This document shows, piece by piece, positions 5,138 through 41,326 of a stretch of 64,000 nt of DNA. A program made the translations under genes and the position numbers. Origin of the DNA: a bacterium (GTDB taxonomy: Bacteria; Orphanbacterota; Orphanbacteria; Orphanbacterales; Orphanbacteraceae); contig JALGYY010000017.1 in the NCBI GenBank assembly GCA_025782575.1, positions 175,892-239,891 of the forward strand, read 5' to 3'. The notes below the pieces were generated by a model, which saw nothing but the letters and a program-made list of their open reading frames with translations, was not told the origin of the DNA and made no database searches. Numbering within the stretch: position 1 is the first letter of the stretch; every line of letters begins with the position of its first letter.

Positions 5138-5156
5138 CGAACGGGGTCAGTCCGAG

Positions 5157-7243: not shown

Positions 7244-7260
7244 GAACGCCCCACCCCCTC

Positions 7261-12443: not shown

Positions 12444-12476
12444 GTCATGCTCCTCGAAACAAGGGGAGTCGATAGA

Positions 12477-13655
12477 TCAATAGAGAAAATGTCCCTGTAC
12501 TACAGTCTGAGTGTAGTCCGTCCGGCTCAGCGCCGGATCGATAATCGACCCATCCGGTTCGTCGATCACATACGTCTGGACGAGCAGGCTGAGCACGGCG
12601 AATGGATTGAGAAACAGATTAATCCCTGCACCCCACCGCGCTTCCGTGCCGGATTGAAGATCGAGATCAGGGTCGTGAAAACTGAAAGTTCCCACAAGAT
12701 CGAGTCCCTGCCGAACCTGGAAAGCCGCTTCGTGTGATGTAATGAACGTGGTGATCTCCTCGTCGCTTTCCGGAAGATTCCATCTGGTCCAATCCGCCTC
12801 TCCGAGCCAGGTGAATCGGTCCCAATGAAACGCGCCGAACGGTCCCCCCGTATTGCGTTCCCTCACCTCGTCCGACGGGAGAGACCGGTCATCATCCGAC
12901 TGATAGGAGCCGCCGAGAGTGACGCCCGTCCCCTTCAGGTGAAACCGCCAGGCACCTCTGGCAGCGAAAGAGAGTTCATCATTGAAATCCTGCGTCGCGC
13001 CCTGGTTCCCGTTCAGGAGCGAGAGATGCAATTCGGTATTCCCTGGATAGAGGCCGACCTCCACACCGACATCGGTATGGGCGGGGGGCTCGAAGCCGAG
13101 TACTTCACGGGTAAACGCGTTGTGATCGGCTAGCTTCCAGCCGAATGCGGGAGTGAAACGACCGACTTTGACGTAGCCGTTATGGGGGAGTACCTGGGCC
13201 ATCCCGAAGGCCTCATAGGTCGTGCTTGAACCCCGATCGAGATAGGCGGACCAGTGATCGTCCCCCTGGAAGGAGAGATAGAAATCGCTTTGCATATGAA
13301 AGAACCCGTTCTCCGATCGCAATGCGTCCTCGTCGGAGTAGCGTGCAATGGTCCGAAGATCGGCGCCGATCGTGATCCGATCGGCAATATGGGGATTGAT
13401 CTTTTCGATGTCCCCCATTCCCCAGGGGTTGTAAACCATTTCAGTGGGCACCAGGAACTGGCTTGCGTAGGTCGTTCTCATCCCCCCACCTGTAGGATTC
13501 ACATGACAGAGAGAACACTTCTGCTCGTATCGAGCCGAATAGCGGGGAAGACCGAATGCGGAGGAGACGGAGAACGGCCCCAGGTTCGTTTGGATCGCGC
13601 CGAGCGCCATCATCAGACTGAAAACCCTGACAACAACAGTCCCTTTGATTCTCAT
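12477..13655 (-). CDS. Outer-membrane porin-like barrel with N-terminal haem c motif
   Basis: There are 392 residues. After a long signal region (cleavage probably near residue 34) comes a CxxCH haem c motif, C47-C50-H51 in QKCSLCHVNPTGGGMR. From about residue 85 to the C-terminal Tyr the protein is made of alternating amphipathic strands rich in Trp/Tyr/Phe (for example GYVKVGRFTPAFGWKL, WRFHLKGTGVTLGGSY), ending ...VVQGHFLY, as in outer-membrane barrels. One covalent haem at the periplasmic mouth of a porin is the simplest reading. GGAAGGGGAAG precedes the ATG. It lies between the barrel-SppA gene and yceI in the same operon. Only one haem site is seen, so it is not a multihaem conduit by itself. 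Confidence 0.75.
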   Translation of the reverse strand: MRIKGTVVVRVFSLMMALGAIQTNLGPFSVSSAFGLPRYSARYEQKCSLCHVNPTGGGMRTTYASQFLVPTEMVYNPWGMGDIEKINPHIADRITIGADLRTIARYSDEDALRSENGFFHMQSDFYLSFQGDDHWSAYLDRGSSTTYEAFGMAQVLPHNGYVKVGRFTPAFGWKLADHNAFTREVLGFEPPAHTDVGVEVGLYPGNTELHLSLLNGNQGATQDFNDELSFAARGAWRFHLKGTGVTLGGSYQSDDDRSLPSDEVRERNTGGPFGAFHWDRFTWLGEADWTRWNLPESDEEITTFITSHEAAFQVRQGLDLVGTFSFHDPDLDLQSGTEARWGAGINLFLNPFAVLSLLVQTYVIDEPDGSIIDPALSRTDYTQTVVQGHFLY

Positions 13656-13691
13656 CGGTCGAACTTCCCCTTCCGCCGGTTCCTACCGGTC

Positions 13692-16556: not shown

Positions 16557-17288
16557 ATGAAAAAGACCGTTATCATCCTCGCGGCTCTCGCCATTGCGGC
16601 GACCGCGTACGCCCAGCCCTGGCACGCCAAAGGGGACGTGTACTGCGTGCCGGGTTGCTGGAATTTTGATGCTGGCAACCTGTTGAATGACCTTGGCGTG
16701 AGTGGGGACGCTGTCTCAGGCGATGGGATCTACAGCGCTCTTGTCACCACAGATGTCGGCGCGATCGGCAAGTATTCGTGGAAAGCGGCCCGCGACGACT
16801 GGTCAGATGCTTATCCCGGCAGCAACCAGTTCGTCCATGTAGGCGTCTTGGCGGAGCAGATCCTGTTCACCCTCGACACGAACGCCAATGGTGACGGCTG
16901 GCTTCCGGATCAGAATATCGCCTGGTCCGATCATTACGCTCCGGCCGGTACCGCTTTCGAAGTAATCGGTGCGGCGGCCGAAATCGGCACCTGGGCTGAC
17001 GGCGTAGTCGCCACGAATGTGGGCGGGGTTCACTCCGTTACTGTCAATATCGCCACACTTGGCAGCTATGACTTCCTGTGGCGCGCCGACAATGACTGGG
17101 ACCTCCAGACCATGCGCGCCGACGGCGGCGCAAGCGGTGGCGGGAACCTGAACTTCACTACCGTTAATCCGAACACGAATGTTCTTTTCGAGTTCAATGC
17201 GAACACCGGCCGGACCCGGTCCACCGTGCTCACCAACACGGCGACCGAGAACTCGAGCTGGGGCTCGATGAAGCAGCTCTTCCGGTAG
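16557..17288 (+). CDS. Exported protein upstream of secreted amylase, function unknown
   Basis: This 243-residue protein has a clear signal peptide (MKKTVIILAALAIAATAYA). The mature part seems to hold two beta-sandwich domains of about 100 residues. The first (about 25-125) contains GVSGDAVSGDGIYSALV and ends in LFTLDTNANGDGW. The second (about 130-225) has FEVIGAAAEIGTW, similar to the 'ViGs.pelG.Wd' strand of starch-binding and pullulanase accessory domains, and a closing VLFEFNANTGRTRSTVL. No catalytic site is visible. Located 107 bases upstream of the secreted GH13 amylase on the same transcript, it may bind alpha-glucan at the surface or periplasm. This is inference from fold-like motifs and context. 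Confidence 0.75.
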   Translation: MKKTVIILAALAIAATAYAQPWHAKGDVYCVPGCWNFDAGNLLNDLGVSGDAVSGDGIYSALVTTDVGAIGKYSWKAARDDWSDAYPGSNQFVHVGVLAEQILFTLDTNANGDGWLPDQNIAWSDHYAPAGTAFEVIGAAAEIGTWADGVVATNVGGVHSVTVNIATLGSYDFLWRADNDWDLQTMRADGGASGGGNLNFTTVNPNTNVLFEFNANTGRTRSTVLTNTATENSSWGSMKQLFR

Positions 17289-25427: not shown

Positions 25428-26501
25428 TCAGATGATCCTCCGTTCCGTCTCATGATCAAAGAAGTGCGCCTGCCCGGCCGGCATCCGAATGCGCACGTCA
25501 TCGCCCATTCGAAGTGAAGGAAGTCCGTCGACACGGGCAATGAGCCGGCGACCTCCCATTGTGAGATAGATATTGGACTCGCCCCCCATCGGTTCGACGA
25601 GTTCCACTCTCGCCGGGAGCCCCTCCCCCTCACTCTGAATCTCGACGAGCTCCGGGCGCACGCCGACGAAAACTTCCCGCCCCACATGGTTCGCCAGGAG
25701 TGTGATTGTCTCCGGTGTGGACGGGATACGCGACTCCCCCACCTGGAGCTCCGTCCCCGTCCATCGGGCAGGAAGGACATTCATCGGAGGGGACCCGATG
25801 AACTCTCCGACAAAACGATTGGCAGGGTTCGAGTAGAGGCCCATCGGCTTGTCCACCTGCTGCACAAGGCCATCGCGTAGGACAGTGATTCGCTCTCCCA
25901 TTGTCATCGCCTCCACTTGATCGTGGGTGACGTACAGGGTCGTGATCCGGAGCCGCTCATGAAGCGCGGAAATTTCCGCTCTCATCTGCACGCGAAGCTT
26001 CGCATCCAGATTCGAGAGCGGTTCGTCAAAGAGAAAAACCTTGGGCTTACGGACGATCGCCCGCCCGAGGGCAACGCGCTGCCGCTCCCCTCCGGAGAGT
26101 TGGCCGGGACGTTTTTCGAGCATGGAACTGAGACTTAAAGTATCAGCTGCTTCCCTCACAAGACCGTCGATCTTCTCTTTCGGGTGCTTTCTTACGCGAA
26201 GCCCGAACGCAATGTTTTCATAGACGGTCATGTGCGGGTAAAGGGCGTAGCTTTGAAAGACCATGGCGATATCCCGGTCCCTCGGCGGAACATCGTTCAC
26301 CACCCGGTCATCGATCAGGATCTCACCGTCATCGATATCTTCCAGACCCGACACAACTCTGAGGATTGTGGATTTGCCGCAACCGGAAGGCCCGACGAGA
26401 ACCATGAATTCCTGATCATGAACTTCCAGGTTGATTCCCTCGAGAACAGGCTCCCCCTTGCCGTAGCTCTTGGTGAGATTACGGAGAATGATACCAGCCA
26501 A
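25428..26501 (-). CDS. malK: Sugar ABC transporter ATPase, start at TTG
   Basis: The protein has 357 residues from TTG 26501, which has GAGGAGG 5 bases upstream and gives MAGIILRNLTKSYG, the normal MalK N-terminus. The frame continues 44 codons upstream to an ATG, but that part has no family similarity and contains the promoter. Walker A is GPSGCGKST, the Q-loop MVFQSYALYPH, signature LSGGERQRVALGRA, Walker B VFLFDEPLSNLD and the switch His in VTHDQVEAM. The C-terminal regulatory (TOBE/OB) region covers about 235-357. It energises MalFG import and may also take part in regulation, as MalK does elsewhere. Confidence 0.9.
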   Translation of the reverse strand: MAGIILRNLTKSYGKGEPVLEGINLEVHDQEFMVLVGPSGCGKSTILRVVSGLEDIDDGEILIDDRVVNDVPPRDRDIAMVFQSYALYPHMTVYENIAFGLRVRKHPKEKIDGLVREAADTLSLSSMLEKRPGQLSGGERQRVALGRAIVRKPKVFLFDEPLSNLDAKLRVQMRAEISALHERLRITTLYVTHDQVEAMTMGERITVLRDGLVQQVDKPMGLYSNPANRFVGEFIGSPPMNVLPARWTGTELQVGESRIPSTPETITLLANHVGREVFVGVRPELVEIQSEGEGLPARVELVEPMGGESNIYLTMGGRRLIARVDGLPSLRMGDDVRIRMPAGQAHFFDHETERRII

Positions 26502-26553
26502 GTTGACCTCCTCGATCGCAGGCGATTCGGCGCCGTGTCCGGGATGGGACCAA

Positions 26554-26582
26554 ATAGTAAGGAACGGGGCGAAGATGGTCAA
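26554..26582 (-). promoter_or_regulatory. Sigma70-type promoter of the malKEFG operon
   Basis: On the minus strand TTGACC (26582-26577) and TACTAT (26559-26554) are 17 bases apart. The expected start near 26547 gives a leader of about 45 bases ending in GAGGAGG and the TTG start. This supports excluding the upstream ATG of the malK frame. Confidence 0.6.
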
Positions 26583-26660
26583 CCGGAACGCTCGTCGAAG
26601 ACTTCTGGAATAATCTGGCCCAAGATGGTACACTGCATAGGGTTATTGTCCCGGAAAACC

Positions 26661-26675: not shown

Positions 26676-26710
26676 ATATGTTCTTTCTCTTTTCATCCTT
26701 GGAGGGCAAA

Positions 26711-28756
26711 ATGAGGAGAAGTTACACACTGCTGGCCATCCTGGCGGCTATTACGTTGGGCGCCGGATCGGTACATGCAGAGGGTTTTGGTACGCCGACG
26801 ATCGACGGAGTGATCGACGGGGTCTACGGAGCGGCGGAGGCGACAGACCCTTCAGGCGAACTCTGGAACGGACTCACCAACCTCGACCTCACCAATCTCT
26901 ATGTCTGTAACGACAATACGTTCTGGTACTTCGCCATCGAAGTGAACGCCGATATTGCCGCTACAGCCTGGGCAAAATACATCATCGACATCGATGTAAC
27001 CAACGATACCGACGGCGGGACGAGCGACGCGTGGGCCCGGCCGGTCCTGGTCAATGACCCGCATAAGCCGGAATACTCGCTTCGAAGCTGGGTGGATAAT
27101 CTGCCCTACGATCCGACTGACAGCCAGGTATGGGCGTGGACACAGGGTACGACTTCGTGGGCACAGACGAGCACACTTGACGACGTGGCTCTCGCCGCGG
27201 GCGCGACCTCCGTTCTCGAATGGAAAGTGGCGAAATCGAAGTTCGGTAATCCGAGCACGATCTGGGTGGAAGCCTGGACGACCGGAGGCGGAGGGGGCGA
27301 CAACGCCCAGGATACTTCGAACGATCCCGCAGGTGACTGGGATGCGATTGACTGGAGCAGTCCGGCGACGATCAGCGTTTCTACACAGGTAGCCGAGCAG
27401 TCCGGCGGAGACACGACCCCGCCTACGGTGACGGGCTACAGCTACGACGCCCTCGATCGGCTCGTGATGCACTTCAGCGAGCCGATCGATACGCTGACAG
27501 CTCAGATCGGCGCCAATTACTCCGTGACAGGTGAAGTCGTAATCGGGGCGGTCTTGAACGACGCCTCTTCCGTCGAGTTGATTCTCGGAAGCGACATGTC
27601 GCTCGGGAGCTGCATCGACGCTGAAGCGATCAACGTCAAAGATCTTGCCGGCAACGCCATTGTCGACAACAACGTGACAAACGTGACTTCACTCTTTCTG
27701 ACGGAACTCCACATCCGTGGTCAGATGAGCATTCATCTGCAATCCCATACGTTCTTCCCGGCAATCGATACTTTTGCAATTGAAGGGAGCATCTTCCCGC
27801 TCACATGGGATCCGACGTGTGATGATCTTCTGCTGGACGGCGGAACGGTCGACTCGGTCTACGAGGCTACGCTCGTCTTCGCATCCGATTGCGGCGTTGT
27901 GAGCAATGAACCTGACACGGTCACTCTCGAGTACAAGTTCACCCATCAGTGCACGGAATGGGAAGGCGTCAGCAACCACGTCTACGAGCTGAACATGGGT
28001 GTTCCGATCGATACTCTCGATATCTGGTGGGATAATCAGGCGCCGATTGACTTCACTGACAAAGATATCGATGTGATTTTCAATACGATCAGCAGTCTGC
28101 AGGCGCCGTTCGTTCCCGGCGATACTCTTGCCGTGAACGGGAGCATCTCGCCGCTCAGCTGGGACACACCCCCGTTTGCGACCAGCATCATGGCTGATGA
28201 CGGCGTTTTGCCGGACACGACAGCAGCCGACGGGAGATACACGAAACGGATGACATTCCCGGCGGGTTCGCTCAAGAACTTCGAGTACAAGTACTTGTTG
28301 AAGGAGATGGGTGACACTCTCTGGGTATTCGAGTGCGACTTTCAGCCGAACCGCTCGATCTTCCTGAATGACACGCTCTTTTCGACATCCTCGCCGATCG
28401 TTCTCGATCTGCAATGGTTCGACATCTGCCGGGACATCGTCGGAATCGATGCGGGTGAAGTTCCGAGCCGGTTCAGCCTTCTCCAGAACGTGCCGAACCC
28501 GTTCAACCCGACAACGGTGATCGAGTTCGAACTGCCGGAAGCGGCCAGAGTCAACCTGTCGATCTATGACGCCTCAGGCCGGCTCGTCCGCCGGCTCGTA
28601 GACCGGGAGCTTCCTGCCGGGACCTACTCGGGAAGCCGCGGTGTCATCTGGTCGGGGACCGATGACAGAGGCATGAGCGTTGCGAGTGGTGTTTACTTCT
28701 ACAGTCTCGATATGGGAGGCGAAAAGCAGACTCGTAAAATGGTGCTTGTCCGTTAG
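26711..28756 (+). CDS. Exported multi-domain protein with sorting domain, divergent from malK
   Basis: The protein has 681 residues from the ATG with GGAGGG 4 bases upstream; an earlier ATG adds 11 residues before the signal peptide and is rejected. The signal peptide ends at VHA. Residues about 22-235 look like a DOMON/CBM9-type ligand domain (GTPTIDGVIDGVYGAAEATD...). About 240-335 is an Ig-like 'Big_5' domain. Two related beta domains follow, each with a 'DT(F/L)A(I/V)xGSIxPLxWD' start (about 345-455 and 460-565), reminiscent of starch-binding modules. The last 85 residues are the FlgD-like sorting region (VPNPFNPTTVIEF ... GVYFYSL). No catalytic site is seen. Surface glycan binding is inferred. 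Confidence 0.82.
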   Translation: MRRSYTLLAILAAITLGAGSVHAEGFGTPTIDGVIDGVYGAAEATDPSGELWNGLTNLDLTNLYVCNDNTFWYFAIEVNADIAATAWAKYIIDIDVTNDTDGGTSDAWARPVLVNDPHKPEYSLRSWVDNLPYDPTDSQVWAWTQGTTSWAQTSTLDDVALAAGATSVLEWKVAKSKFGNPSTIWVEAWTTGGGGGDNAQDTSNDPAGDWDAIDWSSPATISVSTQVAEQSGGDTTPPTVTGYSYDALDRLVMHFSEPIDTLTAQIGANYSVTGEVVIGAVLNDASSVELILGSDMSLGSCIDAEAINVKDLAGNAIVDNNVTNVTSLFLTELHIRGQMSIHLQSHTFFPAIDTFAIEGSIFPLTWDPTCDDLLLDGGTVDSVYEATLVFASDCGVVSNEPDTVTLEYKFTHQCTEWEGVSNHVYELNMGVPIDTLDIWWDNQAPIDFTDKDIDVIFNTISSLQAPFVPGDTLAVNGSISPLSWDTPPFATSIMADDGVLPDTTAADGRYTKRMTFPAGSLKNFEYKYLLKEMGDTLWVFECDFQPNRSIFLNDTLFSTSSPIVLDLQWFDICRDIVGIDAGEVPSRFSLLQNVPNPFNPTTVIEFELPEAARVNLSIYDASGRLVRRLVDRELPAGTYSGSRGVIWSGTDDRGMSVASGVYFYSLDMGGEKQTRKMVLVR

Positions 28757-30111: not shown

Positions 30112-31755
30112 CTAGTCGATCTTGGTGATCGAGTAGGTCAGTTTTCCTTCGTCCAAGCGGAACTCATATGTTCCGGATTCAGTGAAGTTCAGCTTACCGA
30201 GTGCCGTTCCGAAACCGGTGATGGAGCAGATGTCACCGGAGAGCGCGACCGAACACGTGTTGTCTTCCCCGGTACAGGTTCCGTAGTCGGCCGGGCTGTC
30301 GAAGCCGCCGTCCGTTACGAACTTCATCAGATAGCAGCCATGGCCGATCACCATCGTATCGACCCAGACACAGCTTTCAACTTGTATCATCGACGGCACT
30401 CCGGGCAGGTTCCAGTCATTGAATTCGCCCAGAACCTGAATCGCGCTGAATTCCGATTCGCAAGGAACTCCCGCAAGTGTCACTTCGCCGATCGGTGTCG
30501 TCTGTCCGGCAAATACCGTGACGCCTTCCACCACTACGTCCTGGAACGTTCGAGCGCTGACGAGAACGTCATACTGCCCGGGATTCAGTCCTTCCACCAG
30601 GAAGGTGGCCGTAGCACTGTCGGCGATTCCCGAAGCGATAACGACACTGTCGCCCGCTTCCCTCACTTCGAAGGTCACCGCGGGCACCGGATCGGGCGCT
30701 ACGTCGAACGTGTACGATCCTGCGAGACCGCCGGATCGTTCTAATGTGACCGTGGCGACGTTGGTCTCCTCCCCTGCGATGAATTCCACGCCCGGTAGCA
30801 GGGAGCTTACGTATCCGTCTGACTCGAATAACAGGTCGTACACGCCGTCAATCAAATCTTCAAACATGTAAGAAGTCTCGCCGGTCGTGAGCGAAAGCGT
30901 GTCGGCGACCGTCGACGTTCCGGTGGCGAACACGGTGATGTCCACGGAAGGAGTGGGGCTCGGCGAGTCGGCAAACGCCACCGATCCTCGGATGAAACCG
31001 GTGGCGATCACATCGATCGTCTCGAGATCGGTACCCGATTCCGCGCTGACTCGAACATTACGTACGAAGCGCACGGGGTAAGTATCCTCTTCGCCGGGCA
31101 CTTCAATAACGACAGTGTATATGCCTGCGGTGAGATTCTCGATGGTGAACCGTGAGCTGTCGACGCCGACCGTGTCCCAGGGAACCTCCGAGGGGAGGGC
31201 GATCTGGAAAAAGCCCGGGTCGATGGACGTGTTCAACAGGAACCAGTAGTCCCCGTCTTCATCGATCGGAATCTTGATGTCGTCTTCGTTTCCGCTTGTG
31301 ACTTCGCCGCGACGGGTGTCCTCGTCAATATCGCAGTCTCCGCACTGAGCGAAACTTCCTCCCCATGATGCATTGGTCACGAATTTCCAGGCGAAGGCGT
31401 CGTCACTCTGCACATCGATCAGTTCCTGCGTCCAGAAACAGGGAAAAGCCTCTATCATCCCCTCGGTTTCGAGCCAGGCGTCCTCACTCCAGTCATTGTA
31501 TGTGCCGGTAATATGGACGGAAGTCTCCGGGCCGACGCAGGAAGGATTGTAGTTCTGGAGAGCATAAACAACCGTTTCCGGATAGGGCGGAGCGATCCCC
31601 CAATCGAGAGTTCCCGTGATGACACCCTCGATAACACCGCTCGTGGGAGGCGTGAGTAGCGGTGATTCGTCATTGTCCCCGCACTGGAGCGAGAGAAATG
31701 CGGCCAACACCGTCAGACCAGCGAGAATCGTCCGAGTCTTGTTTCTTCGTCCCAT
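30112..31755 (-). CDS. Lipoprotein with two CBM48-like modules and carboxypeptidase-regulatory-like repeats
   Basis: This is 547 residues from the ATG with GGAG upstream; a longer frame begins inside the previous gene. The lipobox is LSLQC. Residues about 50-190 contain a starch/glycogen-binding-like module (VHITGTYNDWSED ... FAWKFVTNASWGG). About 255-420 hold two CarboxypepD_reg-like repeats (GFIRGSVAFADSP; GGLAGSYTFDVAP). About 430-547 hold a second module (IQVLGEFNDWNLPG ... YLMKFVTDGGFD). No enzyme motif is present. In position and build it resembles SusE/SusF surface starch-binding lipoproteins, though not by direct sequence match. It is the last gene of the operon. Confidence 0.82.
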   Translation of the reverse strand: MGRRNKTRTILAGLTVLAAFLSLQCGDNDESPLLTPPTSGVIEGVITGTLDWGIAPPYPETVVYALQNYNPSCVGPETSVHITGTYNDWSEDAWLETEGMIEAFPCFWTQELIDVQSDDAFAWKFVTNASWGGSFAQCGDCDIDEDTRRGEVTSGNEDDIKIPIDEDGDYWFLLNTSIDPGFFQIALPSEVPWDTVGVDSSRFTIENLTAGIYTVVIEVPGEEDTYPVRFVRNVRVSAESGTDLETIDVIATGFIRGSVAFADSPSPTPSVDITVFATGTSTVADTLSLTTGETSYMFEDLIDGVYDLLFESDGYVSSLLPGVEFIAGEETNVATVTLERSGGLAGSYTFDVAPDPVPAVTFEVREAGDSVVIASGIADSATATFLVEGLNPGQYDVLVSARTFQDVVVEGVTVFAGQTTPIGEVTLAGVPCESEFSAIQVLGEFNDWNLPGVPSMIQVESCVWVDTMVIGHGCYLMKFVTDGGFDSPADYGTCTGEDNTCSVALSGDICSITGFGTALGKLNFTESGTYEFRLDEGKLTYSITKID

Positions 31756-31765
31756 GATGTGACTC

Positions 31766-32176
31766 CTACTTGACGATGAGCAGTGAGTTGAATCCGCCGT
31801 ATCCGTCGTCGACACGAAGCGGATTATTGGGATCCTCTTTCCAGGTCTGCTCGTCGATCACAAACTTATACTGATAGCGGCCTTCGGGCAGATCGACGAC
31901 CTTGGTCCATACTCCATCGCCGTCTTCATCTTCCATGAGTCCGATAAGGTAGCTTCCCGTCTCCGCCTGCCCCTGCAGCCAGTTATTCCATTCCCAGTTA
32001 CCCGCAAGCTGCACCCGGGATGCCGAGAGAGCTTCGAACTGGAATCGCATTCCCTCACCCACTTCGTAGGGCGGCGGAAGGCGGCGCTTGATAAAGTCGA
32101 GATTGATGCAACCGCTCATCACTGCCGGGATCAGAAGCGCGCCAATCAGGATTCTGGTTTTATTCCATTTGATCAT
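31766..32176 (-). CDS. Small lipoprotein made of one CBM48 glycogen-binding domain
   Basis: The protein has 136 residues with a signal peptide and lipobox VMSGC. The mature part is a single AMPK/isoamylase-N type E-set domain: VQLAGNWEWNNWLQG, GVWTKVVDLPEGRYQYKFVID and the closing EDPNNPLRVDDGYGGFNSLLIVK. These are the same landmarks as in the CBM48 modules of the divergent GH13 enzyme. It sits between the CBM48-porin and the larger CBM48 lipoprotein, with gaps of 18 and 10 bases. It probably tethers alpha-glucan at the outer membrane. Confidence 0.87.
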   Translation of the reverse strand: MIKWNKTRILIGALLIPAVMSGCINLDFIKRRLPPPYEVGEGMRFQFEALSASRVQLAGNWEWNNWLQGQAETGSYLIGLMEDEDGDGVWTKVVDLPEGRYQYKFVIDEQTWKEDPNNPLRVDDGYGGFNSLLIVK

Positions 32177-32194
32177 GTTGACTCCCAGGGGACG

Positions 32195-34348
32195 CTAAAA
32201 TCGAACGATCCCCTCAACCTGGAAGCGCTCTTCGTCTTCGAGCGCCTGCTCGGCTTGGGGGATCAGAGACCCCAGGTTGGTAAAGTCCTTACGCGCCGCG
32301 TCTCCGTTCGCACCCAGATCGAATAGGAATTCATCTCTTCCGATGTACCCGTATTCGTTCGTGGTCTCATCGATAACATACGGATCGACACCGTATGAGA
32401 ACGCCAATTCGAGACCGGCGCCGAATTCATAGGCCACTTCGAAAAACGTCGACCAATAGGAGCTGAACAGGTCGAGCACAGGGTCATTGTACTTCACGAG
32501 CCGCGTGTCCGAATAGAGTCGAAAGCTCTTGTACGGCCGTGACAGAAGTTGCAAGAGGGTCTCGACGTACTTGGGATCGTTTCCTGTCACCCCGGCGATC
32601 TGGCCGAGATAGGTGAACCGGACATCCCGAGCTTCCCAGACATCGAATGAAATCTCAGGCCGCAGGATCGTCGCGTCCCGCCCGCCAAGAAGAGTCATCC
32701 TGTCGAACGACACTTCATGCTCGGCATGTTCCAGCCAGAAGTTTCGCGTATCGAACCAGAGTTGATTCTCCCAGGGGGTTCGATCGTCGTAGTCGAACGA
32801 GAAGAAATCGCCGGCCAGTCCGACCCGGAGATCGTGCCAGGCTTCGTATTCTTTATGATAATCGAACCGGATCAGATTCACACTGTTATCGATGTCGCCA
32901 TGAATTCCGGTGGCGTAGAACGTCTGCTCGTGGGTTTCGAGTTCCCAACTGAGCGCCAGAGTCCGGCGACCTTCATCGGAACGCCACTCCCCACCGACGA
33001 AAAAGCGATTGGAGTTATCGAGATCGAAGTCCGCTCCCTCGATCAGAAGCTGGCCCGATGTGGAGACTATCTCCGCATCATACGTGGTTTCCTGCAGGAA
33101 GGGATCGACCTCTCCCGACGTGCGGAGTACGACATCGGTCACAGTCCCGTCCCTGCCGGCCACGTGGGCAGAGCCACGCAGGTATTCAAAGCGAAGCCGA
33201 TACGGAACCTCCTCGCCGCCGTAGGAAACGTCTCCTCCCCATGCGGTCCACTGCTCAACTGTTTTCGCGTAGTCACGTCTTGTTCCAACAGTATCTCCCT
33301 CTGCCGCATCGATAATAGAGAGGCTGCCCGGATTGTGACCACGGTCATAGCGGAATGAGGAGCCGAAGGTAAAGTCATCGTAAGGGAGCTTCAGTCTTGC
33401 GGCGAAAATATCTTTGTCGTTGTCGATAATGTCAGCATTGTAAGTAACTACGTCCCCCAGGCTGAACCGGAATCCAGTGGCGGAACTGTCAAAAACGGTT
33501 CCTGTCTCGGCTGCGCTCACACTGTCAATGCCCGGCGTGGTCGTTCCGCCGTTCTCAAAATCATCTGAGTATAGAAGAGTGAGGCCGAGATCTCTGTACC
33601 AGGTACTGGCAATTGCCCCCTGCTGGCGAAAACCGAAATCGTGGTCGTAAATACCAATCCCGCCGACCAGCTCCAACGGATCGTCCCAGCGACCGGCCGA
33701 TTCGTTGTCATAGAGCATCCCCTCGATTTCATCCGTGTGGAGCTTGATCGATCCCCGATCGAATCGCATATTGGTCCGCCAGAAATCCGTTTCGGTCGCC
33801 TCATTCTCGTTATTGATCGTCGTGAGTAAGTGCACATCGGTCACTTCGTTAACGCGGATACTCCAATCGAGATCGATGTCCATGGTCGGTCGGGTCAGCT
33901 CGAATTGATCGCCACGCCCCTCGTTGGTCGCCGACTTGTAGAGGCCGATGAACCGGCCGCCGAGAAGGATCTTAGGGGAAAAGGCGGTGTTGGATGTCGC
34001 CGCATGCTTCACCTCGCCCCCCCCTGTACCGATTTCGACGAGGGAGTTCCCGTACGCGCCGGATGTGACAGGGTTATCAGGATCGGCCATCCATTGTCCG
34101 TCCACGACAAACTTATATTCGTGCTTTCCGGGAGGAAGCTCCACGGTCACCGTCCAGACACCCTCCTTCTTCTCCATGAGAGTCGCGCCGGTATTCCAGT
34201 TGTTGAACTCACCGGCAATTGCCACGCTGCCTGCATTCTCATCAACGTAAGTAAAAACGACACCGTCCGGCGTTACTTCGAACGCCGCGTGAACGGGTAA
34301 GAATGTTAAAGCGAGCAGACCGATTATCAGGAGCGCCTTGATTCTCAT
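32195..34348 (-). CDS. CBM48 domain fused to an outer-membrane beta-barrel
   Basis: This encodes 717 residues. A signal peptide (1-21) is followed by a CBM48 module at about 22-110 (VAIAGEFNNWNTGATLM, PPGKHEYKFVVDGQWMADPDN). From about 130 to the end the protein is a large barrel of some 20 or more amphipathic strands (ILLGGRFIGLY, DLDWSIRVNEVTDVHLLTTIN, LGLTLLYSDDF), ending EERFQVEGIVRF with a C-terminal Phe, the usual outer-membrane insertion signal. It therefore looks like a porin with its own glucan-binding module in the periplasm or at the surface. No match to LamB or SusC is apparent. It is the fourth gene of the operon. Confidence 0.82.
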   Translation of the reverse strand: MRIKALLIIGLLALTFLPVHAAFEVTPDGVVFTYVDENAGSVAIAGEFNNWNTGATLMEKKEGVWTVTVELPPGKHEYKFVVDGQWMADPDNPVTSGAYGNSLVEIGTGGGEVKHAATSNTAFSPKILLGGRFIGLYKSATNEGRGDQFELTRPTMDIDLDWSIRVNEVTDVHLLTTINNENEATETDFWRTNMRFDRGSIKLHTDEIEGMLYDNESAGRWDDPLELVGGIGIYDHDFGFRQQGAIASTWYRDLGLTLLYSDDFENGGTTTPGIDSVSAAETGTVFDSSATGFRFSLGDVVTYNADIIDNDKDIFAARLKLPYDDFTFGSSFRYDRGHNPGSLSIIDAAEGDTVGTRRDYAKTVEQWTAWGGDVSYGGEEVPYRLRFEYLRGSAHVAGRDGTVTDVVLRTSGEVDPFLQETTYDAEIVSTSGQLLIEGADFDLDNSNRFFVGGEWRSDEGRRTLALSWELETHEQTFYATGIHGDIDNSVNLIRFDYHKEYEAWHDLRVGLAGDFFSFDYDDRTPWENQLWFDTRNFWLEHAEHEVSFDRMTLLGGRDATILRPEISFDVWEARDVRFTYLGQIAGVTGNDPKYVETLLQLLSRPYKSFRLYSDTRLVKYNDPVLDLFSSYWSTFFEVAYEFGAGLELAFSYGVDPYVIDETTNEYGYIGRDEFLFDLGANGDAARKDFTNLGSLIPQAEQALEDEERFQVEGIVRF

Positions 34349-34359
34349 ATTCAGGACCT

Positions 34360-35895
34360 CTAAAAGTTTCCTTTAACTATTACTCGAATAATGTCTTTGT
34401 TATCCGCGCCGCCGGCGAGATCGCCGTCGTTCACCGGGTTAGCGTCGTCTCCGATCCACCAGGGACCGTACGACAGAAAGATGTCCATATTATCCCGCGG
34501 CCGGTACTGGATTTCAGAGAACAGCCCCTTCCGCAATCTCGCAGGATCGTTCCCGAACACATAGCGGTTGTATACCTTGAGCACCTGGGGAATAATGTTG
34601 ATCGAGGTTTCCAGAGATGCGAGTTCCTTTCTTCTCTTTGTGTCCAGATCCTTGATCTTCCCCTGAACCCGCATCCAGGCGAGGCGGCTCTCCACCTGCA
34701 CTTCTGCGAAGAAATCGAAGTTCTTCGTCTCCTCATCGAACAGCTCGTTCGAGAAATCAACTGTCAATTGGCGATCGTACCAGAACTTGCTCGTAAAACC
34801 GTTCACATACTCGGTGTAGATCTCGGTACGGAACCGTGTGTATTTCTTCTGCTCGAATACGCTTCGCCGGTTCTCTTCCCAGTCGAGCGTCACGGTGACG
34901 GCTCTTCCCGGAACGAGATACCAGGTGTTGATCTTGTATCCGACCAGGTCGTTGGTCCCCTCGCCAAGGAACGAAGCGTAGTCCTCTCCAAAGTAGTAAT
35001 AAGATGGGGCGATGTTGTAGAACCCGACTTTGGGACTGCCGAACCGGATGGAACGAAACTCCGCTTTGAACGCGGCGTCCCGCGGTAGAATGCGGTGGAA
35101 TTCGTCGATCTCATAGTCACCGAACTCCCATGTACCATCCGGTTTTCTGTTCTCCCCCGCTCCCTCGACCCTGCTGTCGGCGAACTCGACAAAGAGATCC
35201 GTGTTTCGAACCGTAAACCGGAAATCAACCGCATACACCTGGTTGAAACCCTGCTCACCGTCCTGGGCTTCAAGCTTCCTGGTATAAGTCATTCCAGCCC
35301 GCATGGCGTTGTCTAAGAAGTTACGGCGTAGCCGAAAGACGTGCGCATCATCGGAGGGGGGTGGTGTCGTTACGCTGCCCCCCACTTTCGACTGGCTCGA
35401 GAAGTCACTCACGATGTAGGTGGCGTCCAGTCCTTTCCAGCGGCGAATATCGACACGGGCACCCTGCGCGTTCCCGCCGTCAGTAGTCCCACCCCCCTGC
35501 ACCGGCTGGAGGAGATGGTTGTCGACCCAGAAGCGGTCTTCCCGAGAAAAGAGATAGGCGTCGAACTCGGAATCACCGAAATTCCGCCTGAATCGAAGGT
35601 GAGCTTCACGGTATTGATAGACAGGGCGCTCTTCGTTGTTCGAACCTGTGTTCCAATCCGCCTCCAGGCGAACGTACGCCTCGACCCCCTCGCGGGGAGA
35701 GCTGAATATCCGAAACTGACTCGCCGCCCAGGTATCGTCATGGTTGGATTCGAAATCCCACGGAAAGGCGCGATCCTGTTTCCGGATGTCGAGTTGGAGC
35801 TGATATTCCCCTTCCACCTTGGTAACAGCATTTACGTCGACAACAGCGGCGCCAAGCCCCACCAGGATAATCGAGAGAATCCGTCCTGGTTTCAT
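34360..35895 (-). CDS. Outer-membrane beta-barrel protein, unknown ligand
   Basis: This 511-residue protein has a signal peptide (cleavage near VNA, residue 23). The body is rich in alternating aromatic strands (YQLQLDIRKQD, AYVRLEADWNTG, AHLRFRRNFGDSEFDAYLFSRED) and ends in VIVKGNF, a C-terminal Phe signature. It contains no plug or binding domain and no CBM48. It overlaps the PorV-like gene by 4 bases (ATGA) and precedes the CBM48-porin by 11 bases. It may be a sugar porin or a structural partner of the next barrel. Confidence 0.78.
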   Translation of the reverse strand: MKPGRILSIILVGLGAAVVDVNAVTKVEGEYQLQLDIRKQDRAFPWDFESNHDDTWAASQFRIFSSPREGVEAYVRLEADWNTGSNNEERPVYQYREAHLRFRRNFGDSEFDAYLFSREDRFWVDNHLLQPVQGGGTTDGGNAQGARVDIRRWKGLDATYIVSDFSSQSKVGGSVTTPPPSDDAHVFRLRRNFLDNAMRAGMTYTRKLEAQDGEQGFNQVYAVDFRFTVRNTDLFVEFADSRVEGAGENRKPDGTWEFGDYEIDEFHRILPRDAAFKAEFRSIRFGSPKVGFYNIAPSYYYFGEDYASFLGEGTNDLVGYKINTWYLVPGRAVTVTLDWEENRRSVFEQKKYTRFRTEIYTEYVNGFTSKFWYDRQLTVDFSNELFDEETKNFDFFAEVQVESRLAWMRVQGKIKDLDTKRRKELASLETSINIIPQVLKVYNRYVFGNDPARLRKGLFSEIQYRPRDNMDIFLSYGPWWIGDDANPVNDGDLAGGADNKDIIRVIVKGNF

Positions 35896-36770
35896 TCACT
35901 CCCTCCGAACGGCACGGTGAGCGAAGCCATGTAGGAGATGCCGAGAGTCTTGTGAGTCGAGAACCCCGTGTCGAGGAACCAGCCCTGGCCCAGAAGACCG
36001 AAGCCCCCCCAGAACTCGGCGTCGAACACCCCGCTTCGAAGCGCGAACACTTCAAAGAAGCTGATTTCACCGCCAAGGGAGAGGGCGATTTCATCGATAT
36101 CATTGTGAACCAATCCCGCTGTTACGATCGAATTCTGGTGCCACTGGTAAGCGAGCGAGCCTTCCCACTCCGCCTCCACAACCGTGCCGCCATTTCCAGG
36201 AACGAAGTCGAATTCGGGTTCCACGATGTTACGTACGATTGTGCCGATCGAGAGCTTGGGGGTGGGACGATACAACAGCCCCGCATCGGCGGTGATTTCG
36301 GTCTGCGCCCCATAGTCGCCCGTCCCGATATCATCGAGCCGGGAGAAGTCACTATACGAAACCCGGAGCGCTTTCAGTGTCACGCCGAGTGCCACCGATC
36401 CGAGTGCGGGAAGCCGTCTTTCTTTTGAAACAGAGAGTGAGAAAACATCTTCGGATTGCACGCCGGAAAGACCGAGATGATGCCAGGCCATACCCACATG
36501 GACGATCTTGTTCGGCCAGGTGAGCGCAACATAGTTGGCGGACAGGTCGGGAACGACAAAGGGGCGCGAGTGATTCAGTAGAACGGCCGGGCGATCCTGC
36601 AGTGCGAGGCCGGCCGGGTTCCAGTAAACCGCTGAGGGGTCGTCTGCAATGGCGTGAAATGCCTGGCCCATGGCGAGCGCCCGGCCACCCACTTCGAGCC
36701 GCTCATAATAGGCGCCTGCGGGAGCGGCCAACATGAGTAACACTAACAGTGCTGCCCCGCGAATCATCAT
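35892..36770 (-). CDS. PorV/UPF0164-like outer-membrane protein
   Basis: The 292-residue protein has a signal peptide (MMIRGAALLVLLMLAAPAGA) and the hallmark 'GGRALAMGQAFHAIADDPSAVYWNPAGLAL' of the PorV/PorQ branch of FadL-like barrels. The rest is a barrel of about 14 strands. PorV proteins help deliver or attach Type IX cargo at the cell surface. Here the preceding gene encodes a protein with the FlgD-like sorting region, and the two genes overlap by 4 bases, which fits a dedicated cargo-carrier pair. That pairing is inferred. Confidence 0.85.
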   Translation of the reverse strand: MMIRGAALLVLLMLAAPAGAYYERLEVGGRALAMGQAFHAIADDPSAVYWNPAGLALQDRPAVLLNHSRPFVVPDLSANYVALTWPNKIVHVGMAWHHLGLSGVQSEDVFSLSVSKERRLPALGSVALGVTLKALRVSYSDFSRLDDIGTGDYGAQTEITADAGLLYRPTPKLSIGTIVRNIVEPEFDFVPGNGGTVVEAEWEGSLAYQWHQNSIVTAGLVHNDIDEIALSLGGEISFFEVFALRSGVFDAEFWGGFGLLGQGWFLDTGFSTHKTLGISYMASLTVPFGGSE

Positions 36771-38194
36771 CGGACCACCGAAAAGCCACGGATTTCACTG
36801 CTCACACCGGGCTCGATTACAAGTCGAAGGAGATAGATTCCGCCGGGAACCATGTGGCCGCTGTCGTCAAGACCGTCCCAGCGGTTTTCGTCCAGGAGAT
36901 TGGATTCGGAGTTCACAAGCTCCCCGATCCTGCGTGCGATTTCCCGGTAGAGCGTTTTTACCAGAAGGCCCCTCATGTTGTAGATCTCGGCCGTAAGCGT
37001 CACGTTCCGATCCCGTTCATCAATCGACTCCGCCGACGGATCGAGAGTGAACCAGAATCGAAGCTCATCCCCCTCTTCCGGAGAGAGAATGGGACGGTCG
37101 AACGAGATCTCATTCATGGCGAAAGTGATTCCCCGAACCGGAGGATCGGCGAGGAACCGCACCCGGTTCTTGATTCGCACATCCTGCAGATCGGGCGCTC
37201 CGTCGGCTAGAATCGTGTCGACCACAGGATCGGGAATCGTATCGACCACAATGCCCCCACCCACCTCGGTTGTGTCCAGCCGAAAGGTGTCCGTTACATC
37301 GTAGATCTGCCGGCCGGACTCGGTCAGAAAGAAGGTCGTATCCAAGGGAACAATGGCGTAGTTGTCGATTGAAACCTGGTCAGATGATTCAATCGTATGG
37401 CCGCTGAAGTTATCGGGCGCCGAGTCGGGCCCTCCTGTGCCGTCAGCGCCGGCGGTAACAATGGCGCAGAAGCGAATGGGACGGGACGGGCTGAGACCTC
37501 CCGGAAGGAGCCAGCTGGAATCCCTAACAGACTCATCGAAGAATCGCGTCAAACCATCCGCGTAAAAGACGTCCCATGGAATCGCCGCTTCCATCGAGCG
37601 GCCCGTGATGGACTGGTCGAACTTGGCCTCTGTTTCGATCGTGTTGTTGTCGATCTCCACGACCGTATTCTCACCGGAGGCACGCCAGAGCTGGGGCGTC
37701 GTGTTCCCGTCCCACGTAGCGAGGAAGAGATCGGGACGAAAACCGTTGGAAAAGACGAAGTTACGGCGCCAGGAATTCAGCTCCGTCATCTTCTCGAGAC
37801 CACCGGGAAGGTAGTCCATCAATAAAATAATATTGTTATCCCAGCTGATTCCGTCGACAGCGACGTAGATGTTCTCAGCGTCCCATGTCACTTTGATCTG
37901 ATTGATGTCGTTATTAAAACCCCACTTGGAGTCGTTGTTGGGCTCCTCATCAAGTACGATCGGCCGGCCGTCGAGCAACCGTGTCACCTGGCCGAAGAGC
38001 TGCTCATCGTCTTCAAAATCCCGAACAATCTCCCCCGCCCGCCCCTCATGAGTGGGAAAACCATCGATCTCGATGCGGCCGGACAGATTGCGGCCGGTCT
38101 CACCCCATGCGGGGAGAGCGGCGCATAGGAAAATGACTGTGAGGGCGAACGAGACACCCGTCAGTCCGGTGTAATTCTTTGGATTCAGCTTCAT
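36767..38194 (-). CDS. Exported protein with CBM9/DOMON-like region and FlgD-like sorting end
   Basis: The protein is 475 residues from ATG 38194; the open frame begins 13 codons earlier, but the signal peptide (MKLNPKNYTGLTGVSFALTV...) fits this start. No Shine-Dalgarno sequence precedes it. Residues about 35-260 have the pattern of a glycan-binding or sugar-sensing exported domain (INQIKVTWDAENIYVAVDGISWDNNIILLMDYLPGG). About 360-475 form the FlgD-like region (RFWFTLDP ... AEIYNMRGLLVKTL ... GGIYLLRLVI), although the 'PNPFNPTT' box is absent. It is the first gene of the six-gene operon, divergent from the GH13 gene. Confidence 0.78.
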   Translation of the reverse strand: MKLNPKNYTGLTGVSFALTVIFLCAALPAWGETGRNLSGRIEIDGFPTHEGRAGEIVRDFEDDEQLFGQVTRLLDGRPIVLDEEPNNDSKWGFNNDINQIKVTWDAENIYVAVDGISWDNNIILLMDYLPGGLEKMTELNSWRRNFVFSNGFRPDLFLATWDGNTTPQLWRASGENTVVEIDNNTIETEAKFDQSITGRSMEAAIPWDVFYADGLTRFFDESVRDSSWLLPGGLSPSRPIRFCAIVTAGADGTGGPDSAPDNFSGHTIESSDQVSIDNYAIVPLDTTFFLTESGRQIYDVTDTFRLDTTEVGGGIVVDTIPDPVVDTILADGAPDLQDVRIKNRVRFLADPPVRGITFAMNEISFDRPILSPEEGDELRFWFTLDPSAESIDERDRNVTLTAEIYNMRGLLVKTLYREIARRIGELVNSESNLLDENRWDGLDDSGHMVPGGIYLLRLVIEPGVSSEIRGFSVVR

Positions 38195-38204
38195 GACATC
38201 GCGG

Positions 38205-38233
38205 ATACTAGCATCCGGGGCAAACCTGATCAA
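38205..38233 (-). promoter_or_regulatory. Promoter of the CBM48 outer-membrane operon
   Basis: On the minus strand TTGATC (38233-38228) and TAGTAT (38210-38205) are 17 bases apart. The expected start near 38198 is only about 4 bases before the ATG at 38194, which has no ribosome-binding site, so a leaderless message is possible. Confidence 0.5.
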
Positions 38234-38247
38234 CTGTTCCAGCTCTG

Positions 38248-38276
38248 TTGTCTTTACTCCTCGACGGGCCTAGTAT
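38248..38276 (+). promoter_or_regulatory. Promoter of the CBM48-GH13 gene
   Basis: TTGTCT (38248-38253) and TAGTAT (38271-38276) are 17 bases apart, with the same -10 hexamer as the divergent operon promoter 15 bases away. The shared 120-base region suggests joint control. Confidence 0.5.
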
Positions 38277-38314
38277 TATGGCTCAGATTTCTATCCCTCC
38301 GGAAAGGAGCCAGA

Positions 38315-41300
38315 ATGCGTCTCGCCATCCCTTCGATTCTTACCCTGCTGGCCATGCTGGTCTCTGCATCGCCGTCTTCAGCCGCAGTTTCCGTTCATTT
38401 CACCTACCGGCCGGACACTTCCGATCCGGGCCAGATATCGGTAGCAGGGGAGTTCAATAACTGGAACGCCTCCGCCGATCTCATGTCCGATGATGACGGA
38501 GACGGCGTCTTCGAGGCCACGATCGAGATCGAACCAGGACGCTACGAATACAAAATCGTAGTCGACAATGTCTGGATGGAAGATCCGGTGGCCACAGAGC
38601 AGACGGCCAACCCGTTCGGCGAATTCAATTCGGTTATCACCATCCCGGAAGGCGTTCTGGCCATCGAATCATCCGGAGAGGGGGCGATCGCGGGTCCCTC
38701 TACCGGGGCCGCAGCTGGTGGAAAAACACCGGTACGGTTCACATTTACTCCACCCACCACCAACCCGAGCCTCGTTACCGTGGCGGGCGAGTGGAACGGC
38801 TGGAGTATGGGGACAGACTACCTGGCCGATGGTGATGGGGACGGCACGTTTGACGGAACGGTCAAACTGGAGCCGGGCCGGTATGAATACAAGTTCGTGG
38901 TGGATGGCGTCTGGTTTGAAGACCCCCTGGCCATGGAGCAAGTGGACGACCCTCATGGCGGCTTGAACTCCGTGGTCATCGTGACGGCCGGCGACGGTTC
39001 ATCGGAGCCCCCCCCCACGCCCGCCAAGCCCCAAACTCCCATGGCCATCGAATATCGGATCACGGCAGCGTCGAACGAGCCAACGGAAGAGGGAAACGAG
39101 CTGCGGATAGTCACGTTCCGGTTCGTCCCCGAAAGCGCGGCATCAGAAGTTTTTCTCGCGGGGACGTTCAACGAATGGAACCCAACCGGAAATCTGATGG
39201 AAGGGCCGGGCGAGGATGGCGCCTGGACTCTGAACCTGACCCTCGTGCCAGGTGAGCATCGTTACAAATTCGTTGCCGACGGCAACTGGATTCATGATCC
39301 GAACGCGGAAGATTTGGTGGACGACGGATTCGGCGGCTCGAACTCGGTGATCATCGTGGACGATCGCTACGAGTCGATCGCCATCGCGGAAGGGGACGGG
39401 CAGTTTCGAACAGAGGGGCTCTTTCTCTCTCGGGAGCAGATTCTGTTGACACGGGTCTCTCCTGAACGGGTGATGGTTACCGCCCGGGCTTTCAGGAACG
39501 ATGTTGAGTCAGTATCGGCGAGAGTATTGGGGCCGACCGGCCAGGCTGAGTTCCCCCTCACCCGGATCGGCGATGACGGTCAGTTCGCCTACTACCAAGG
39601 CGATGTCGCCGTCGGAACAGAAGAAGAAGCACGGCTTGCCATTTTGCTTCATGACGGAGGCGTCACCTACCTGCTCGGCTCGGATGACGGCAAGGGAGTT
39701 TCGAACGAGAATCTGCTGCTCATCAACTCGGAATCAGTCCCCCCATTCGAAACGCCTGACTGGGTAGCCGACGGCGTGGTGTACCAGATCTTCCCGGACA
39801 GATTCCGGAACGGGAACCCTGACAACGATCCCGATTTTTTAGAGGACTATTACGACGGCGCCAGGGACCTTCCCAGGAGCGGGAAGCGGAACGGCGAGTA
39901 TTTTCATCTCATGGAGAGTTGGAACGATCACACAGGACTGGTAAAGAGCCCGTACCGGACAGACGGGAAGCCCGACTACTACTCCTTTTACGGTGGTGAT
40001 CTGGAGGGTGTGACCGAGAAACTGGACCACCTTCGTGATCTGGGTGTCACCATCCTCTACTTCAATCCGCTCCATCAGGCACAGTCCAATCACAAATATG
40101 ATGCGATCGACTATGCCCGAGTGGATCCTCACTTTGGCGGAGACGACGCGTTCCGCGAACTCGTCAGCCATGCCCATGACCGCGGCATTCGCGTGATCAT
40201 CGACGGCGTGTTCAACCACACGGGCAAGTATCATTACGCTTTTCTTGACACGAAGGAGAAGGGGAGTAAGTCCAAGTACTGGAGCTGGTACGACTGGAAG
40301 GAATGGCCCCTTCCCCCGGGACCGATTCCAGAAGATCAATATATGAACTACTACGATTGCTGGTGGGGTTACGGCTCGCTCCCCAATCTCAGCTTTGATC
40401 TGTCGCTGTATGGCGAAGACGAAATGAAAGCCAAGCGAATCGAGGATGCCGACCCGAATCAGGATCTTATTAATCACATCAATGACGTCATTCAATTCTG
40501 GATGGGAGAGATGGACGCGGATGGAATCCGGCTGGACGTAGCAAACGAAGTACCGGTCTGGTACTGGGAAATCTTTCGAGACCAGGTTCGCTCCGTTCGA
40601 CCTGACGGCGGCTGGGTAATCGCCGAGCTCTGGGGGAACGCCGCCTCTGATCTGGGGCCCCATCGTTTCGACGCCACTATGAACTACAAGTACTTCCGCG
40701 ATCCGGTGCTTTCATTTATCGCGCGTGGGGCTGTGGACGCCGATGCGTTCGACAATCTGCTGGCGGGGGGCCGATACGGCTATCCCCTCCCATCGGCCTG
40801 GGGGAGCATGAACCTGCTCGATTCCCACGATACGGAAAGATTTCTGACAACTGCGGGAAGGGACACAAGAAGGCTCACTCTGGCGGCTACTTTCATGGCC
40901 TGCTATGTCGGGATGCCTCACATTTATTATGGCGACGAGATCGGCATGGAGGGAGGCCCCGACCCTGATTGCAGGCGGCCCTACCGGTGGGATGAGGAGG
41001 ATGAGCCGTCTCGCGCGGCCATTCGCGACCACTACAAATCAGTGCTCGCCATACGCGCCGCCCACCCGGCTCTTCGCCGAGGCGGGTTCCGCTCCATCTT
41101 CACCGATGGCAATCTTTATGTGTTCACCCGGGAACTGGGTGACGACCGGATCGCCGTCGTGCTGAACGCCGATCGCGCGCCGGCTGCGGTTCAATTGGAA
41201 GGGGCGGCGATTTCGATGACCGGGACATCGGCAAGAGAGCTCCTGACAGAGAGTGATATTCGCCTGGAAGGGGGCGTCCTCAATCTGAGTCTCGAGCCTT

Positions 41301-41326
41301 ACAGCGCGGCGGTGATCGCCTACTAG
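38315..41326 (+). CDS. Exported GH13 amylase/neopullulanase-like enzyme with three CBM48 modules
   Basis: This encodes 1003 residues. GGAAAGGAG precedes the ATG and a signal peptide ends near SAA (24). Three CBM48 modules lie at about 27-112 (AGEFNNWNASADLM), 138-225 (AGEWNGWSMGTDYL) and 262-348 (AGTFNEWNPTGNLM), followed by an N-domain-like region (about 355-475) and a GH13 barrel from about 483. Catalytic residues are intact: D741 (DGIRLDVANE), E771 (VIAELWGNA), D839 (LLDSHDTERF). The overall build is like cyclomaltodextrinase/neopullulanase (GH13_20-like). No sorting region is present, so it is probably periplasmic or released. It is divergent from the CBM48 outer-membrane operon and probably co-regulated with it. 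Confidence 0.92.
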   Translation: MRLAIPSILTLLAMLVSASPSSAAVSVHFTYRPDTSDPGQISVAGEFNNWNASADLMSDDDGDGVFEATIEIEPGRYEYKIVVDNVWMEDPVATEQTANPFGEFNSVITIPEGVLAIESSGEGAIAGPSTGAAAGGKTPVRFTFTPPTTNPSLVTVAGEWNGWSMGTDYLADGDGDGTFDGTVKLEPGRYEYKFVVDGVWFEDPLAMEQVDDPHGGLNSVVIVTAGDGSSEPPPTPAKPQTPMAIEYRITAASNEPTEEGNELRIVTFRFVPESAASEVFLAGTFNEWNPTGNLMEGPGEDGAWTLNLTLVPGEHRYKFVADGNWIHDPNAEDLVDDGFGGSNSVIIVDDRYESIAIAEGDGQFRTEGLFLSREQILLTRVSPERVMVTARAFRNDVESVSARVLGPTGQAEFPLTRIGDDGQFAYYQGDVAVGTEEEARLAILLHDGGVTYLLGSDDGKGVSNENLLLINSESVPPFETPDWVADGVVYQIFPDRFRNGNPDNDPDFLEDYYDGARDLPRSGKRNGEYFHLMESWNDHTGLVKSPYRTDGKPDYYSFYGGDLEGVTEKLDHLRDLGVTILYFNPLHQAQSNHKYDAIDYARVDPHFGGDDAFRELVSHAHDRGIRVIIDGVFNHTGKYHYAFLDTKEKGSKSKYWSWYDWKEWPLPPGPIPEDQYMNYYDCWWGYGSLPNLSFDLSLYGEDEMKAKRIEDADPNQDLINHINDVIQFWMGEMDADGIRLDVANEVPVWYWEIFRDQVRSVRPDGGWVIAELWGNAASDLGPHRFDATMNYKYFRDPVLSFIARGAVDADAFDNLLAGGRYGYPLPSAWGSMNLLDSHDTERFLTTAGRDTRRLTLAATFMACYVGMPHIYYGDEIGMEGGPDPDCRRPYRWDEEDEPSRAAIRDHYKSVLAIRAAHPALRRGGFRSIFTDGNLYVFTRELGDDRIAVVLNADRAPAAVQLEGAAISMTGTSARELLTESDIRLEGGVLNLSLEPYSAAVIAY

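Follow-up and report, generated by a model that had tools for sequence, protein, structure and literature searches.

The locus studied here raises the question of how a bacterium might bring alpha-glucans across its outer membrane with neither a Sus nor a LamB system. It lies in a 64,000-nucleotide stretch of DNA, which we refer to as the window. The sequence-only reading of this stretch had described six minus-strand genes divergent from an exported GH13 enzyme with three CBM48 modules. Both the open reading frames and the Pfam matches bore this out: a packed minus-strand set, F-E-D-C-B-A, lies divergent from gene G, and all seven frames lie where they had been placed. The starts of A and F were picked by eye, giving A = 30112-31755 and F = 36767-38194, and the export signals and lipoboxes of all locus genes were likewise assigned by eye rather than with a signal-peptide predictor. 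The features are as follows.

16557 to 17288, plus strand: X25-like protein, a recurrent neighbour of the cluster in relatives
17396 to 20476, plus strand: second GH13, with a Big_5 and FlgD_ig tail; probable surface amylase
22441 to 26633, minus strand: malG, malF, malE and malK, a maltodextrin-type ABC importer
26678 to 28756, plus strand: sorting-domain protein with a T9SS type A tail, near A and malK in relatives
30112 to 31755, minus strand: gene A, predicted lipoprotein with two degenerate CBM48-like modules, one on either side of CarboxypepD_reg domains
31766 to 32176, minus strand: gene B, lipoprotein (lipobox by eye) with one CBM48
32195 to 34348, minus strand: gene C, with a signal peptide (by eye), a CBM48 at about residues 25-105, a large beta-barrel at about 126-717 and a final Phe
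34360 to 35895, minus strand: gene D, beta-barrel of 24 predicted strands with a final Phe and no Pfam match
35892 to 36770, minus strand: gene E, PorV/PorQ/FadL-like outer-membrane protein
36767 to 38194, minus strand: gene F, exported, with a T9SS-type tail that is weakly FlgD_ig-like
38315 to 41326, plus strand: gene G, exported GH13 of the neopullulanase/cyclomaltodextrinase type with three N-terminal CBM48 modules

The genes are tightly spaced, with 4-bp overlaps between F and E and between E and D, and gaps of 11 bp (D-C), 18 bp (C-B) and 10 bp (B-A). F is separated from G by 120 bp; a search of 38000-38500 gave no sigma-70-like promoter, a result of little weight in this lineage. Between the mal genes and A there are one sorting-domain gene and one glutamate dehydrogenase-like gene.

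We examined the CBM48 modules of the locus. Pfam placed one AMPK1_CBM module in each of C (2.5e-19) and B (2.2e-8) and three in G (2.8e-39), and in all three proteins AMPK1_CBM or CBM_48 scored over its curated cut-off. The match in A was weak (0.0039, under the curated cut-off) and lay beside CarboxypepD_reg domains. A profile made from the window and its named relatives recovered seven modules: three in G, one in C, one in B and two in A. Five of these carry every glucan-contact landmark and satisfy all of the Trp, Lys and Asn patterns; both modules of A are degenerate and fail them, the second having Phe in place of the second Trp. The earlier count of about seven CBM48-like modules is thus better given as five clear modules and two weak ones. 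In the whole genome (4.88 Mb) AMPK1_CBM was found at nine places, of which five are in this locus, and the gene order is kept in relatives (see below), indicating that the clustering is not due to chance.

Aligned with PDB entries of AMPK beta subunits, the module of C matches them at the tryptophans of its FNNW and DGQW motifs. Passages of PMC4339375 describe Trp100 and Trp133 of AMPK beta as key glucan-binding residues and report that altering the counterparts of this pair in PTST abolished starch binding. Across 82 modules, which are the same set that trained the module profile, the equivalent of Trp100 was present in 81, that of Trp133 in 78 and the Lys in all 82. Simple patterns were also applied to 66 modules, 7 of them the window's own and the other 59 taken from held-out loci (L103, a contig of L054, was omitted from the held-out count). 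The first-Trp pattern was found in 56/66, the Lys-to-second-Trp pattern in 53/66 and the following Asn, a residue with a role in glucan contact, in 43/66. These residues suggest that the modules of the locus likely bind glucan. Against such binding, passages of PMC8040265 report that CBM48 domains on CE1 esterases failed to bind starch, and that CBM48-CE1 enzymes have predicted signal peptides and bound none of the glycans assayed. To judge from those passages, the export of CBM48 is by itself no rarity, so the earlier remark that its use across exported proteins is unusual holds in a narrower form: the unusual feature is the fusion of CBM48 to barrels and to MalG.

Next, we modelled the two barrels as monomers, with moderate confidence. 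C was modelled as a CBM48 followed by a large barrel (mean pLDDT 70.6) and D as a barrel of 24 strands (mean pLDDT 76.6). The best fold matches of D were pilus ushers (Z 16.5, rmsd 4.4, 388 residues aligned), followed by many porins and exporters with close scores; an usher identity for D was dropped, the resemblance being one of fold only. From residue 125, C matched TonB-receptor barrels at the top of its list (Z 16.5, rmsd 4.4, 365 residues). The SusC-type structure 5t3r_D (Z 16.0, rmsd 8.2, 405 residues) was tied with other TonB-receptor barrels. AlgE, an alginate exporter, was among the matches of both proteins, and Z scores of 13-16 are common to many unrelated barrels, AlgE and ushers included. 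Because the top rows contained many close-scoring barrels, we took no function for C or D from their fold matches and rejected the search as a guide to it. The sequence-only reading had proposed this modelling and fold search; both proteins did model as barrels, and no decisive relative emerged among known folds.

Sequence comparison gave no closer relative. D has no Pfam match, and the sole Pfam hit among 11 aligned D members was one weak Porin_4 (0.0091). All of the 11 aligned C members contain AMPK1_CBM and none matches a barrel family in Pfam. No Pfam match to the TonB Plug domain was found in C, in D or in the 11 aligned members of each. Two sequences were omitted from the alignment sets: L050's D gene, which has an in-frame stop and comes from the record of L029, from A3, and L058, whose start is uncertain, from A4. 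A profile of D matched six solved-structure sequences, all weakly and implausibly, and hhalign gave an unconvincing probability of 42% for a relationship between C and D. No plasmid record was found to encode D.

These results bear on the possibility that one of the barrels, D or C, is a divergent form of maltoporin or of a TonB receptor, in which case the system would be an ordinary one with no new mechanism. Maltoporin 1mpr does occur in both fold lists (Z 14.6, rmsd 6.8 for C; Z 13.9, rmsd 7.1 for D), and TonB-receptor barrels head that of C. However, neither protein, nor any of the 11 members aligned with each, matched LamB, a TonB receptor or Plug by sequence in Pfam, and the model of D has 24 strands, where maltoporin has 18 and TonB receptors have 22. 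We regard this explanation as unlikely. Outer-membrane proteins usually end in Phe, and both termini of such barrels are normally periplasmic. By this standard topology the N-terminal CBM48 of C would face the periplasm, and it is therefore not obviously the surface capture module that had been envisaged.

We then searched the genome for other glucan routes. There was no match to SusD (PF07980), for which Bacteroides was the only positive among 14 control genomes. SusC-type proteins (TIGR04056) gave seven sub-threshold N-terminal matches and none over the cut-off. LamB (PF02264) likewise had no match in the genome, with E. coli and Bacteroides positive among the controls. No clear SusC/SusD pair was found elsewhere in the genome. 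Membership in Sus was rejected, SusD being unmatched, SusC under the cut-off and the locus barrels without a plug match, and membership in LamB was rejected by sequence. The label 'Sus-like' given to the locus earlier therefore stands as an analogy; its other half, that the parts are not Sus parts, agrees with the lack of a SusC/SusD homologue at the locus. TonB-receptor barrels matched at nine places genome-wide, none of them on the window's contig, C2. As a separate observation, contig C20 (L131:4943-7225, 7215-8183 and 11000-14329) contains a TonB receptor, a DUF4249-like neighbour just under its cut-off and a PulA-type CBM48 pullulanase. The receptor gene encodes 760 aa with CarboxypepD_reg and lies about 4 kb from the pullulanase, and the two may constitute a second alpha-glucan route.

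Conservation was examined first within the family, the phylum set comprising seven genomes of one family with the window's own included. D was present in six of the seven. The complete order F-E-D-C-B-A, whose conservation in related genomes the sequence-only reading had left to be checked, was kept in 5/6 same-family relatives, with the G004 copy spanning two contigs; the G005 contig, from the sixth relative, starts partway through C. G001 keeps the complete order, with an in-frame stop in its D gene. The stop in D (L050 near 10163, on the same contig as L029 near 9551) represents either an assembly error or decay. B was the most conserved of the set (72-82% identity, 6/6 same-family genomes). 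C was matched in all six relatives at 53-60% identity, once partially, and A in all six at 38-44%, four of the copies having a third module. A GH13 gene is divergent from F in four of the six, and the other two have a 38-40% identical copy elsewhere.

The gene order also extends to distant lineages. Scanning the named genomes with the D alignment revealed at least 11 loci, a lower bound since a single peptide pattern was used. The records with a D locus are titled Candidatus Eisenbacteria, Gemmatimonadetes/Gemmatimonadota, Candidatus Krumholzibacteriota and Candidatus Lindowbacteria, together with unnamed bacteria. The D profile alone matched in 28 of 386 genomes (own included), and in 8 of 17 genomes around G157. 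Profiles derived from the window together with the named loci were used to read their neighbourhoods. Two genomes were set aside, G154 (D undetected at 1e-4 in the six-frame pieces) and G348 (contig ends after D). In all 26 readable genomes a same-strand CBM48 module was found 63-777 bp past the end of the D match, at 252 bp or less in 24; the two longer gaps may hold small genes. The search used D by itself, a protein without CBM48, and 19 of the 26 genomes are outside the profile training set, so for these 19 the linkage is an independent result. The CBM48 gene after D also matched the C-barrel profile in 20/26. In the six without this match (G074, G078, G215, G219, G275 and G296, the last at a contig edge) the identity of C was assigned by position and module. 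At four distant loci the Pfam-scanned enzymes combined CBM48 with GH57 (three) or GH13 (one).

Linkage to a maltodextrin importer was found in many of these genomes. In the window, MalE matched NF007011 (5.3e-34) under its cut-off. MalE/F/G/K genes were found on the fetched stretch in 15 of the 28 D genomes and were not detected in the other 13, where some stretches are short contigs. In nine (G035, G074, G075, G078, G140, G157, G215, G216 and G345) the detected mal genes run on the same strand as D. A Lindowbacteria locus (L059, MFPR01000021.1) has the order multi-CBM48 protein, malK, two GGDEF-type genes, malF, malG, malE, D, C, E, B. Its multi-CBM48 protein has five stretches in a partial copy and six modules in a longer frame on the same contig. 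MalG of this locus (7203-8579) contains AMPK1_CBM (6.5e-13) at residues 81-139 and the transporter domain at 258-448. MalG topology puts the region of this CBM48 in the periplasm, where the module would accordingly lie. The two GGDEF-type genes within this Mal/CBM48 run (L059:3125-4822 and 4815-6272), recognised by eye, are probably signalling genes.

Enzyme G aligned closely with alpha-amylase II, 1jf6 (E 4.3e-104), with its D, E and D stretches intact; we take these to be the GH13 catalytic residues. The catalytic domain and these stretches place G with the neopullulanases/cyclomaltodextrinases of GH13. No sorting tail is visible in G. Together, the comparisons of genome neighbourhoods give the route of capture, degradation and import proposed earlier strong comparative support, through the order and the linked Mal and CBM48 enzymes of distant lineages, and its function is read from sequence.

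The neighbours of the barrels point to secretion as well. E matched TraF_2 in Pfam (7.6e-9) and NF033709 PorV_fam (2.7e-13, 50.2 of 90 bits), and F matched FlgD_ig (0.053) and the PorU tail (1.2e-4); neither the PorV score of E nor the sorting-tail score of F reached its curated cut-off. Against solved-structure sequences E had one match, of no note. The protein at 26678-28756 does pass the TIGR04183 cut-off. E was detected in 23 of 27 confirmed D clusters, one of the other four being at a contig edge, and at distant loci two large proteins with Glucodextran_C and a CHU_C or FlgD_ig tail lie just upstream of E. The genome encodes a homologue of the SprA translocon (525.4 bits summed in a single 2037-aa frame, cut-off 200; none of 14 controls), suggesting that type IX secretion may deliver the sorting-tail proteins to the surface. 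From this it could be argued that proteins A to E assemble into a complex of a T9SS branch that secretes sorting-domain proteins or attaches them to the surface, the CBM48-like folds being structural and binding no glucan. PorV-like E, the SprA homologue and the recurrence of sorting-tail proteins beside E across D clusters fit this idea, as do the non-binding domains described in passages of PMC8040265. However, the glucan-contact tryptophans are retained in nearly all modules, Mal genes and amylolytic enzymes are linked, CBM48 is fused to MalG, and E is undetected in those four clusters, which together make such a complex improbable. Equally doubtful is export of an alpha-glucan through the barrels, be it an exopolysaccharide or stored glycogen, with CBM48 proteins guiding it outward and Mal genes recycling fragments: AlgE is among the fold matches and the lack of a TonB plug in C and D leaves no obvious energy source for import, but AlgE is one of many close-scoring barrels, the Pfam-scanned cluster proteins (a subset of the genes) showed neither a recognisable glucan synthase nor a polymerase, and those proteins include hydrolases (GH13, GH57) and importer genes.

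We return to import. The gene order, domain content, conservation and linkage are observed; binding, pore function, direction and location are what we infer from them. On this footing the locus probably encodes a conserved route from the outer membrane to an ABC importer for alpha-glucans (glycogen, starch, maltodextrins), with two plug-less barrels and CBM48 modules. Outside the cell, sorting-domain proteins and the surface GH13 would bind and trim the glucan. Long maltodextrins could then traverse the outer membrane via D and C without a TonB plug, the chain being held by the CBM48 of C, probably at the periplasmic mouth, and by lipoproteins B and A. Exported G, with its three CBM48 modules and no sorting tail, would cleave the chain in the periplasm, and MalEFGK would import the products. 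More tentatively, and with our judgement tipping slightly against it, this may be a third architecture for outer-membrane polysaccharide uptake, apart from SusCD and LamB and common to many uncultured lineages. Here a wide plug-less barrel pair would feed a periplasmic relay of CBM48 modules leading to the importer, with modules on barrel C, on the two lipoproteins (A and B), on enzyme G and even on MalG.

Comparison with known systems shows what is shared. Like the Sus loci and PULs of Bacteroidota, the locus clusters an outer-membrane barrel, lipid-anchored, probably glucan-binding proteins that resemble SusE/SusF in presumed role, and a GH13 enzyme; unlike them, it occurs in a genome without a SusD match or a SusC over the cut-off, its barrels lack a plug match, and it has CBM48 modules and a linked MalEFGK-type ABC importer. 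The enterobacterial maltose system (LamB, MalEFGK, MalS) shares that type of importer, a channel in the outer membrane and GH13 hydrolysis that is probably periplasmic, whereas here there is no LamB match, the two barrels have no Pfam family and one is fused to CBM48, lipoproteins carry CBM48 as well, and the MalG of one lineage does too. The catalytic region of G is close to alpha-amylase II, neopullulanases and cyclomaltodextrinases, but three CBM48 modules and a signal peptide (by eye) precede it. The glycogen-binding module of AMPK beta and the CBM48 of plant PTST belong to the same module family, with two contact tryptophans, yet those of the locus belong to exported proteins, where they are joined to outer-membrane barrels or to lipoproteins of the envelope. 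The 24-stranded barrel of the ushers PapC and FimD is the best fold match of D, at about 6% identity, but D has just 511 aa and no Pfam match to usher domains. We see in the locus a variant of known glycan-utilisation loci, one that could even stand as a third architecture next to Sus and LamB. By title, no published description of this CBM48-barrel system was among the matches listed from open-licence literature. If the model is true, two outer-membrane barrel families that Pfam leaves unassigned would acquire a substrate and a role open to testing, and a diet would be predicted for uncultured lineages (Eisenbacteria, Krumholzibacteriota, Gemmatimonadetes/Gemmatimonadota and Lindowbacteria by record title). 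It would also be a further bacterial solution to outer-membrane polysaccharide import, in which an AMPK-type glycogen-binding module replaces SusD-type capture proteins.

CBM48 was also found in a different setting. A ParA/MinD-like ATPase with a C-terminal CBM48 is encoded at L045:8850-9941 (on C2 of the window's own genome, near 753.9 kb) and at L041:6575-7660 (G030, of another family), and in both genomes it is followed by a gene for 241-245 aa without a Pfam match. By analogy with ParA-type proteins, which position other cargo, this protein could position glycogen granules.
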